Shown here: positions 8,328-21,080 of the stretch, piece by piece
How positions within the stretch are numbered: the stretch's first letter is position 1
Layout: each line of letters begins with the position of its first letter
Assembly: GCA_020060545.1 (NCBI GenBank)
Contig: JAGUZX010000132.1
Coordinates: forward strand, 1 to 40,330
Reading direction: 5' to 3'
Origin: Desulfovibrio sp.
GTDB lineage: Bacteria > Bacillota > Dethiobacteria > DTU022
Length of the DNA stretch: 40,330 nucleotides
The notes under the pieces: model-generated
The model's database searches: none
The model's input: only the letters and a program-made list of their open reading frames with translations
Told to the model about the DNA's origin: nothing
Program-made: the position numbers and the translations under genes

Positions 8328-8358
8328 AAAAGTTAAAGGGTCAGACCCCTTAACTTTT
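8328..8358. repeat. GGGTCAGACCC palindromic element
   Basis: AAAAGTTAA-(A)-GGGTCAGACCC-(C)-TTAACTTTT is a nearly perfect palindrome with the same core as copies at 12683, 12769, 14658 and 20353. Here it lies between two divergent transcription units rather than at a gene end. Confidence 0.85.
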
Positions 8359-18699: not shown

Positions 18700-18732
18700 A
18701 AAAAAGGAAACCGCCTCCCCGCAGGGAGGCGG
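18700..18732 (-). terminator. Rho-independent terminator of the riboswitch-controlled unit
   Basis: Stem CCGCCTCCC/GGGAGGCGG (18711-18719 and 18724-18732) with a CGCA loop on the plus strand. Read leftward it is followed by TTTCCTTTTTT. It sits 6 bp past the lipoprotein stop codon. Confidence 0.85.
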
Positions 18733-18738
18733 CGCCTT

Positions 18739-19266
18739 TCATTCCAGTTCAAATTTTTCCAGGAAGGCCGCCAGCCGAAACCGGCCTGATTCAAAATGCT
18801 CCTGCCTGGCGATCAGCGTCACCAGGGCCGTAAAGCGGGAGCCGTAGAGGACGGCGGTGCCTGCTTCAATTTGCTCCCGCCGGCCCGCCTGTACCCTCAG
18901 GAATGGCAGCGACCGTCCCGAAGCCAGGATGATCTCCTCATACCCGATCGGCTCCCGGGGCTCATAAAGGCCTTTTTGAAGCAGCTTCCCGGCTTCATTT
19001 AAAGTCTCGGCCGGAGTAAACCGGTCCGCCTGGAAAACGGTAACCACCAGGTAGGAAGATTCCCGGTCTGCGGCCTGCACCCGCAGGGTCAGGACCCCCT
19101 GCCGCTCCTTTTCCTCCGCCAACTTCCAGCTTTCTCCCAGGGAGAAGCGGCAGCCGTAAGCCCGGTTGGCATATTCGTTCCCGCCGCGCATATTTGTGCA
19201 GCCGATAATAATCCCCAATAGCAGCAAATAAGAACCAAGGGTTAGCCCGAGCCGCTTTTTCCGCAT
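18739..19266 (-). CDS. Predicted lipoprotein, unknown function
   Basis: The 175-residue protein has a type II signal peptide: MRKKRLGLTLGSYLLLLG followed by the lipobox IIGC, so the mature N-terminus would be a lipid-modified Cys near residue 22. The rest (NRAYGCRFSLGESWKL and onward) looks like a small soluble beta-rich domain, distantly like PsbP-type lipoproteins, but I do not recognise a family. The ATG lies 3 nt after the stop of the upstream gene with no ribosome binding site of its own, so translation is probably coupled. It shares the c-di-GMP riboswitch leader and ends at a strong terminator, so it should act outside the membrane together with the upstream secreted protein. Confidence 0.75.
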   Translation of the reverse strand: MRKKRLGLTLGSYLLLLGIIIGCTNMRGGNEYANRAYGCRFSLGESWKLAEEKERQGVLTLRVQAADRESSYLVVTVFQADRFTPAETLNEAGKLLQKGLYEPREPIGYEEIILASGRSLPFLRVQAGRREQIEAGTAVLYGSRFTALVTLIARQEHFESGRFRLAAFLEKFELE

Positions 19267-19269
19267 TGG

Positions 19270-20328
19270 TTATTTGTTACGGCCCGGCGCACCGCTGCGG
19301 CCGCGGTTGCCGGTGCTATTGCCGTTGCCGGCGCTATTGCCGTTGCCGCTGTTCTTCGGCGTTGAATTTTCGCGTTGGGTCCCGGACAGTGTAGCGCCGC
19401 CGTTTTCACCGTTGCCGCCGCCGTTATCGGCGCCGCTGCCTTCACCGTTTCCGTTTTCACCGTTGCCGCCGCCTTCGGTTTCACCGCCGCCGTTACCGTT
19501 TTTACCGTTTCCGCGGCTGCCGCCGTTTTCTCCTGCGCCGTTCCCGTTGCGGCCGTTGCGGTTTACTCCGGTATTAGCCCACGGGGGAGGGCCCTCCTGT
19601 CCGGATTGAGCCCAGGCGGCATGCTCCATGGCCCTGGCCATATTGTCCAGCGCCCTTTGGGCGTTGGCCCGGACATGAGCGGGCAGCGTTTCATCGCCTG
19701 CTTTTTCTCTCAAGCGCCAGCCTCTTCTTTCCCGCCCGTTGAAAATTTCCTCGATTAATTCATCCAAATCGCCGGCTTCGCCTTCACCCGGCTCTGCCTC
19801 ATCACCGGGTCCTTCATCTTCAACAGGATCTGCGCCTTCTCCGGGTGCGGCCTCATCGGCAGTCTCTCCGCCATCGCCGGTCCCTTCGCCTCCCTCCGGC
19901 TCTGCCGCGTCACCGGTTTCCTCATCCTCACCGGGCGGCAAATCGCCATCCTGTGCTCCGTCATCTCCCGGCCCGGAAACAGCGTCACCGGCTCCGGAGC
20001 CGCCGCTTTCGTTGTTGAATACCCCGGTCATGATTTCATCCAACGCTGTTTCCGCTTGCTCCAGGTCTTTTAACAGCTCATCCAGGTTCGCCTCGTCTTC
20101 TTCGGCCATGATCCCGTCCACCAGCCGGTTGGCCAGGTCGTTCTGCAGCCCGGCCTGCTCCAGGAGATCTTCGCTCAGATCGTTCTGGGACACCCTGATG
20201 CCCATAACAGCATCATAAAAGCCGTCCCCCGGGGAAAAGGCGCCGCCGTCCTGTCCATCCCCGGCCATTACGGCGCCGCCCCCCGCCAGCAGCAACACCA
20301 GCAAAACCGCTGCCGTTTTTTTGCCCAT
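19270..20328 (-). CDS. Secreted acidic then Gly/Asn-rich protein under a c-di-GMP riboswitch
   Basis: Unknown function. A signal peptide (MGKKTAAVLLVLLLAGGGAV, cut near MAGDG) leads into a helical region (residues 30-105; SPGDGFYDAVMGIRVSQNDL) that loosely resembles DUF5667-type domains. Next is a Glu/Asp/Gly/Pro-rich stretch (about 110-190), a short helical segment (RERRGWRLREKAGD to AMEHAAWAQ, about 197-245), and a Gly/Asn-rich tail (GNGNSAGNGNSTGN) to residue 352. The last part is low complexity and the DNA there is repetitive. AAGGAGGGG precedes the ATG. It follows a GEMM-I riboswitch and precedes a lipoprotein gene, which suggests a surface or matrix role tied to the motile-to-sessile switch. 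That role is inference. Confidence 0.75.
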   Translation of the reverse strand: MGKKTAAVLLVLLLAGGGAVMAGDGQDGGAFSPGDGFYDAVMGIRVSQNDLSEDLLEQAGLQNDLANRLVDGIMAEEDEANLDELLKDLEQAETALDEIMTGVFNNESGGSGAGDAVSGPGDDGAQDGDLPPGEDEETGDAAEPEGGEGTGDGGETADEAAPGEGADPVEDEGPGDEAEPGEGEAGDLDELIEEIFNGRERRGWRLREKAGDETLPAHVRANAQRALDNMARAMEHAAWAQSGQEGPPPWANTGVNRNGRNGNGAGENGGSRGNGKNGNGGGETEGGGNGENGNGEGSGADNGGGNGENGGATLSGTQRENSTPKNSGNGNSAGNGNSTGNRGRSGAPGRNK

Positions 20329-20352
20329 GCTCCAGCCCCTCCTTAGATTTGA

Positions 20353-20384
20353 TAATTTAAGGGGTCAGACCCCTTAACTTATGA
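20353..20384. repeat. GGGGTCAGACCCC palindrome in a 5' leader
   Basis: TTAAGGGGTCAG and its complement form a near-perfect palindrome (core 20357-20377). It lies between the riboswitch terminator and the ribosome binding site of the gene at 19270-20328, so it would fold as a hairpin in that leader. Confidence 0.85.
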
Positions 20385-20400
20385 CATATTTTGGTTCCCT

Positions 20401-20417
20401 AAAAAACAGCTCCTGTT
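20401..20417 (-). terminator. Riboswitch expression-platform terminator
   Basis: On the minus strand AACAG-GAG-CTGTT is followed by a run of T. The stem is short (5 bp) but directly abuts the riboswitch aptamer, as expected of a transcriptional expression platform. Confidence 0.6.
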
Positions 20418-20500
20418 TCGGCGGCCCGGCGATCGTAGTTCGTAGCGAACCTTAGACCCGTGGCTTTGCGTGCCAACCTTTCGGAAGGGTTGCCATTATC
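20418..20500 (-). promoter_or_regulatory. Cyclic di-GMP-I (GEMM-I) riboswitch
   Basis: Read on the minus strand, the segment starts GATAATGGCAACCC, has a GAAA tetraloop hairpin (CCTTCCGAAAGG), then the conserved core ACGCAAAGCCACGGG followed by TCTAAGG. A second hairpin (GGTTCGCTACGAACTA) follows, and it closes with GCCGGGCCGCCGAA. These are the hallmark GEMM-I elements: the GNRA tetraloop, CGCAAAGCC, and the closing GCCGGG that pairs back to GGCAA. It leads into a terminator and then the secreted protein and lipoprotein genes. Whether c-di-GMP turns expression on or off cannot be decided here. Confidence 0.92.
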
Positions 20501-21080
20501 GTTCAGGATACGGTATTACTTTGATTTTAACACATTTTTTCGCCATTGGCACCATCTTTTTCTGAGGTAAATTATACCACCGCCCGGTACCAGCCGGATG
20601 CGCCGGAAAGCACCCCGGCGTTACGTAAAGAGCTTATGTTCACTGGATAAAATGTCGTAAAACCAGGAAATACCTCACTTTATGGCCCTTGGTGTAAATA
20701 CCGTGAAAAAATAACTCACACTATCCACAGGGTTATGCACAGCTCAAAGGCTTTTTTTACCCTGCCGGCCCGGCTTATCCACAGGCGGGGAGCCGGTAAA
20801 CATAATTTCAGCCGGCGGGTAAACCGGCGAGCGCCGCAAAAGACGGCGCCCCGGACCGGCCGGATCGGTTGGGCCGCTCTGCGCGCAGGCTTAATCACAG
20901 AGATGGGGCCGCCCTTCACGCCGGTCCCGGCGCAAATTATCCTGCCGTCCACCCGCCGGAAAAACCTGCCGCGGGATCGCAAAAAAACCACAGAAAAATT
21001 TAAGCTGGAAAAAAGGGAAAACGGGATCGTTAGCGAATAAAAAGCAATTGGTAAATTGATTCAGATAAAGGAGGATCGAG
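20501..21080. other. Spacer with DnaA boxes upstream of ferredoxin
   Basis: No convincing gene is seen. A DnaA-box cluster lies at 20721-20783. Open frames on both strands (20716-20991 and 20735-21040) lack ribosome binding sites and recognisable motifs. Both the leftward riboswitch transcript and the rightward ferredoxin transcript must start here, but I could not assign promoters with confidence. Confidence 0.55.
20721..20783. promoter_or_regulatory. Cluster of three DnaA-box-like sites
   Basis: CTATCCACA (20721-20729), TTATGCACA (20733-20741) and the consensus TTATCCACA (20775-20783) all point the same way within 63 bp. The third is a perfect DnaA box; the others each differ from it at one base. 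No dnaA or dnaN gene is near, so this is unlikely to be the main origin. Confidence 0.6.

Follow-up and report, generated by a model that had tools for sequence, protein, structure and literature searches.

Riboswitches of the c-di-GMP-I (GEMM-I) class have been described in the leaders of membrane and surface protein genes, and among the closest described systems are those of B. thuringiensis, in which one such riboswitch, Bc1, belongs to mcpE and another lies upstream of the collagen-binding surface protein gene cbpA (PMC11218506, PMC7423583). The present locus, located in the window (that is, the whole stretch of 40,330 nucleotides that was analysed), places a riboswitch of this common class ahead of two genes encoding an exported protein related to DUF5667 and a PsbP-like lipoprotein, and it is the identity of these targets, together with the connection between DUF5667, SigI and c-di-GMP, that is new. 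The available evidence makes it likely that an envelope module of the SigI/RsgI type was duplicated and put under the control of a c-di-GMP riboswitch.

The aptamer occupies positions 20417 to 20504 of the minus strand, where a cmscan search of Rfam returned a complete match to RF01051 (model positions 1-87, 71.7 bits, E 2.7e-12), well above the gathering score of 35. This significant result of a covariance check with the Rfam GEMM-I model bears out the class and the strand assigned in the preliminary description, whose interval (20353-20500) held the aptamer without its first 4 nucleotides, plus about 60 nt of leader. The aptamer retains its GAAA tetraloop, its closing stems, the ACGCAAAGCC core and the conserved core GCAAAGCC; the tetraloop is presented as CC-GAAA-GG and the CUAAG...CUACGA receptor side aligns to the consensus, while two U-U mismatches in the tetraloop stem and one A-C pair in the closing stem were flagged as non-standard. 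Contact nucleotides are also present, namely G11 and A38, which correspond to G20 and A47 in Vc2 numbering (mapping from PMC11218506), and CC at the site of the C92 equivalent. The riboswitch is genuine and its aptamer an ordinary member of the class, which, judging from these residues, probably binds c-di-GMP; this ligand should be made in the cell, since the 2.5-Mb genome carries ten GGDEF-domain matches and eight c-di-GMP-I aptamers. It is very improbable that the aptamer instead belongs to the GEMM-Ib type and senses 3',3'-cGAMP: one Rfam family takes in both ligand types, but cGAMP binding has been tied to an A at the G20 site (G20A; PMC6274999, PMC7288161), where the window aptamer has G and accordingly does not classify as GEMM-Ib, and the ten GGDEF matches likewise speak for c-di-GMP, although Hypr-type cyclases may be among them.

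Upstream of the aptamer, a consensus scan detected a promoter-like site (20524-20552, minus strand), GTGCCA-17-TAAAAT, in which TG precedes the second hexamer; it is a consensus match only. On the same strand, the Shine-Dalgarno sequence AAGGAGG (20338-20344) precedes gene 1 (19270-20328; assigned from its open reading frame and homology), encoding the exported protein of 352 aa, followed after a 3-nt gap by gene 2 (18739-19266; open reading frame, homology and fold match) and by a terminator-like site with a 10-pair stem and a T-rich tail (18710-18733), called as an intrinsic terminator 3' of the lipoprotein gene. The short gap and the missing clear ribosome site of gene 2 make the coupling of the two genes, as proposed earlier, plausible. 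The promoter-like site at one end (20552-20524) and the strong terminator-like hairpin at the other (18733-18710) delimit riboswitch, gene 1 and gene 2 as one compact two-gene unit, and this layout supports the earlier view that the minus-strand leader controls both an exported protein and a lipoprotein. The riboswitch would then set the amount of the two proteins according to cellular c-di-GMP.

With regard to the expression platform, the switch may be of either sign. The aptamer is enclosed by an outer closing stem in which UCCUG (20504-20508) pairs with CAGGA (20415-20411), and the 3' strand of this stem overlaps a hairpin, GAAACAG-GAG-CUGUUUU (20403-20419), that runs into a U-tract and could represent a weak terminator or an anti-SD strand. 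The slightly favoured reading, which has about an even chance of being correct, is an ON switch: c-di-GMP would stabilise the outer stem and thereby block the overlapping hairpin. The second riboswitch-led copy of the gene, on contig C56 of the same genome, has an aptamer closed by the identical five outer pairs, and some relatives carry other complementary pairs at this place (ACCUG/CAGGU, GCCUG/CAGGC, UCCUAC/GUAGGA and AGCCCA/UGGGCU); conservation of the pairing is suggestive only, as in a flank permutation of 38 aptamers 65 of 2000 trials reached the observed mean pairing, a weak test given that the flanks are themselves conserved. The short terminator that had been reported for this leader is doubtful, because the hairpin, the sole one in the leader bearing a U-tract, has a predicted stability of just -3.6 kcal/mol and the terminator scan of the leader called no terminator-like site. 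The same hairpin is absent from the C56 leader, folding of the full leader showed no extra stability over shuffled sequences (z -0.27), and the terminator probability in a truncated transcript was alike in free and aptamer-constrained folds (0.28-0.38).

Nearly as likely as the ON switch, although tentative, is a translational OFF mode, in which the outer stem stabilised by c-di-GMP would free the CUGUUUUUUAG strand to pair with CUAAGGAG around the ribosome site, so that the module would be made at low c-di-GMP. Full-leader folding does predict pairing of this U-rich strand with the ribosome site, which makes translational control of either sign possible, and trapping of the ribosome-binding site upon c-di-GMP binding has been reported for Bc1 (PMC11218506); furthermore, about 13 nt separate the end of the aptamer from the AUG at two distant DUF5667 loci (G344 and G273), a spacing at which the closing stem would reach into the ribosome site. 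However, G-U pairs are frequent in the proposed helix, which does not recur in the same form at C56, a palindromic repeat alters the spacing, and predicted exposure of the ribosome site, which varies with forcing of the outer stem, rose in one model when the stem was forced (Shine-Dalgarno exposure 0.67 versus 0.17).

This repeat, TAAGTTAAGGGGTCTGACCCCTTAAATTA, occupies positions 20353 to 20381 of the leader (minus strand) and was recognised by its recurrence in the genome: its core is found exactly at 5 genomic places, while a reversed-pattern control returned 0, and longer flanks are common to the copies. The strong hairpin that it forms (20381-20353) was considered as a terminator and rejected, being a dispersed repeat without a U-tract, and it probably lies outside the riboswitch proper. 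As a dispersed palindrome, TAAGTTAAGGGGTCTGACCCCTTAACTTAT is present in the window and at about 6 further, mostly intergenic, places in the genome; a near copy lies at window positions 8335-8351, and a literature search found no paper containing the palindrome. Sitting between the aptamer and the ribosome site, such an element may have weakened the response of the switch, and it is conceivable, if unlikely, that the ligand is still bound while the platform has degenerated and c-di-GMP has no effect on an effectively constitutive operon. The repeat copy itself, the weakness of the hairpin, the empty terminator scan and the unexceptional folding stability would all agree with such decay, but the aptamer retains its 71.7 bits and its contact residues, both riboswitch-led copies keep the outer stem, and the coding sequences of both protein-1 genes appear to be under purifying selection. 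A functional switch, with the ON mode slightly ahead, is preferred in what follows.

The gene-1 protein has a signal-peptide-like start, a helical N-domain, an acidic linker (34 of 96 residues are D or E) and a Gly/Asn tail, in agreement with its preliminary description as an exported protein with these features, and it contains the conserved motifs GRERRGW...ALDN and GPPPWA. The accompanying statement that neither protein matches a nameable family holds for direct scans, since Pfam (at E up to 1) and NCBIfam gave 0 families for both window proteins and a direct comparison of the gene-1 protein with DUF5667 (PF18915) gave no match; it does not hold once intermediates are considered, which lead to DUF5667 for the exported protein and to a PsbP-like assignment for the lipoprotein. 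For the former, the intermediates are paralogues on C56 (53% identity overall, E 1.6e-63; 65% in the N-domain) and, more distantly, on contig C28 (E 3e-9), the latter matching DUF5667 below the cut-off (E 8e-4), together with relatives in genomes G034 and G060 that score above the DUF5667 Pfam cut-off. In an hhalign comparison, the N-domains of the window and C56 proteins matched those of the C28, G034, G060 and G096 set with probability 98 and E 1.4e-13, and clear DUF5667 proteins also bear the acidic linker, an LP..A..A..AL-N motif and GPPPWA plus a Gly/Asn tail. The N-domain is predicted to be helical, at low confidence (pLDDT 68). Judged from these alignments, the gene-1 protein is a divergent relative, not a curated member, of DUF5667, a family for which a literature search, with most subscription journals outside its coverage, found no paper that names it.

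The gene-2 protein (175 aa) carries a lipobox-like IIGC, which upholds its earlier designation as a lipoprotein. A direct Pfam search for PsbP-like families (PF18933) again gave 0 families, and a pattern search of the genome contigs with this protein recovered no relative; it is nevertheless 36% identical (E 3.4e-17) to the lipoprotein encoded on C28, which matches PsbP_2 (36 bits against a cut-off of 27). PsbP structures are also the best solved matches of its predicted model, which is of moderate quality (pLDDT 72.6) and aligns in Foldseek with 4rti and 2vu4 (E about 2e-5, TM 0.54). The paralogue and the predicted fold both point to a divergent PsbP-like lipoprotein that is not a curated member of the family.

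The paralogous pair on C28 has a different genetic setting, being arranged in the order sigI, rsgI, DUF5667-like gene and PsbP-like lipoprotein gene. Two MAG contigs show the same order, namely the Syntrophomonadaceae contig SKMK01000058.1, with the proteins of the G060 locus, and the Dethiobacter contig JAGXRN010000073.1, with those of the G096 locus, while in PWEB01000082.1 the series sigI, rsgI, DUF5667 is cut by the contig end. At more distant loci (L100, L104 and L106) DUF5667 adjoins sigI or rsgI, and in G487 a lipoprotein not assigned to the PsbP-like group, DUF5667, sigI and rsgI stand in a row. No c-di-GMP-I aptamer was found near the sigI-rsgI loci of C28, SKMK01000058.1, JAGXRN010000073.1 and PWEB01000082.1. 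The RsgI proteins in question consist of RsgI_N and RsgI_M domains only, without the carbohydrate-binding parts that C. thermocellum RsgI proteins carry. Judged by the names of the nearest rsgI relatives, the window comes from a Dethiobacteria-like organism. From this distribution, rather than from a tree, the SigI/RsgI operon was probably the ancestral setting of the pair.

The C56 paralogue is located directly behind a c-di-GMP-I aptamer of its own (70.6 bits), which among the other seven aptamers of the genome is the most similar to that of the window (76%), a likeness suggesting that riboswitch and gene were probably duplicated as a whole unit. Between the two copies, the N-domain gave dN 0.226 and dS 1.74 (dN/dS about 0.13) and the GRERRGW motif dN 0.058 and dS 1.61 (about 0.04), ratios that are rough, with dS near saturation, and that indicate purifying selection on both protein-1 genes. 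Around this second copy, the gene immediately upstream of the aptamer is of the CBS-GGDEF type (L010:6339-7205). In the sequence 3' of the paralogue, a residual lipoprotein gene could be read (L010:8500-8680), which is short, has an early stop, is truncated at its end and resembles the window lipoprotein's N-terminal portion.

The riboswitch-led pair is known from one genome only, and a second, independent link to c-di-GMP covers DUF5667 alone. DUF5667 profile matches were collected at 48 loci in relatives and the wider phylum, several of them sub-threshold and probably due to chance; at four of these loci the DUF5667 gene is immediately preceded, on its own strand, by a c-di-GMP-I aptamer (88-92 bits). 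These four (G344, G273, G297 and G483) belong to one genus (g192) of another, distant family and constitute all DUF5667-bearing g192 genomes in the set examined; in G344 and G273 the aptamer closely precedes the start codon, as described above, and in G297 and G483 aptamer and gene are separated by a strong terminator-like hairpin (-18.8 kcal/mol). The c-di-GMP-I class is widespread, being present in 112 of 120 relatives. By rough arithmetic assuming about five aptamers per 2.5 Mb, about 4 in 10,000 genes would by chance have an aptamer on their own strand in the 400 nt upstream, which makes a coincidence in two separate lineages, with about 50 genes considered, unlikely.

Other targets of c-di-GMP-I aptamers in the same genome include a BsaA/TasA-type SipW-dependent matrix protein (L009:5992-6624, contig C80), a transglutaminase-like protein whose gene is followed by that of a penicillin-binding protein, type IV pilus genes of the pilB-pilT-pilC type (named from sequence) and a protein of the PAS-GAF-HD-GYP type. 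These targets fit an attachment or envelope programme for the window pair, and together with the sigI-rsgI linkage they strengthen the surface or matrix system put forward in the preliminary description, which is a reasonable reading, the envelope or matrix role of the pair being probable. Several further features of this set of loci were observed. An unusual fusion of 692 aa, with an N-terminal response-regulator receiver and a C-terminal SipW-type signal peptidase, is encoded at L009:3128-5206, followed by L009:5203-5781 and by the riboswitch-led L009:5992-6624, these neighbours being of the TasA/camelysin type and one of them standing behind the c-di-GMP-I aptamer; nothing relevant was found in the literature on c-di-GMP riboswitches together with TasA. 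On contig C134, a riboswitch-led gene (L014:6888-7163) encodes a very small exported protein of no family. An aptamer of 67.8 bits with a strong terminator on contig C121 (L012:6189-6264) is possibly an orphan riboswitch or a small RNA; no gene is evident after it on its own strand, and the neighbour that follows is a convergent gene for a GH57 branching enzyme.

Taken as a whole, the window pair would be a paralogue of an envelope module composed of sigI, rsgI, DUF5667 and the PsbP-like lipoprotein, one copy of which may have left the control of SigI/RsgI and come under that of c-di-GMP as part of a biofilm or attachment regulon. More speculatively, DUF5667 and PsbP-like lipoproteins might form a general envelope or matrix module of these anaerobic Bacillota, repeatedly moved between SigI/RsgI surface sensing and c-di-GMP riboswitches, and hence a recurrent, unrecognised biofilm effector. 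Both are poorly understood families, for which the locus provides a first handle on function; for DUF5667 the lead consists of a SigI/RsgI tie in several genomes and a c-di-GMP tie in two separate lineages, and a role in attachment or envelope building becomes directly testable in a culturable relative.

In comparison with known systems, the locus shares with the c-di-GMP-I class (RF01051) a complete aptamer, the contact residues and a position in the 5' leader of exported-protein genes, and differs from it in an unusually weak terminator and a repeat within the leader, the aptamer itself being in no way notable. As in Bc1 and the cbpA riboswitch, a class-I aptamer stands before a membrane or surface protein, with a possible mix of transcriptional and translational control, whereas the target proteins are unrelated and Bc1 has two clear terminators. 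With Pfam DUF5667 (PF18915) the gene-1 protein has in common the signal peptide, the helical N-domain, an acidic stretch, the ALDN/ALEN motif and a Gly/Asn- or Lys-rich tail, but it falls below the Pfam model and its acidic and Gly/Asn regions are much longer. The second protein resembles PsbP-like proteins (PF18933/PF01789) and LpqN of M. tuberculosis (by fold) in its predicted fold, with homology through the C28 paralogue, yet it is a bacterial lipoprotein outside photosynthesis with about 15% identity to solved PsbP. Finally, the window copy has no adjoining sigI or rsgI, and what it shares with the SigI-RsgI sigma/anti-sigma systems is that its paralogous DUF5667-lipoprotein pairs sit in sigI-rsgI operons.
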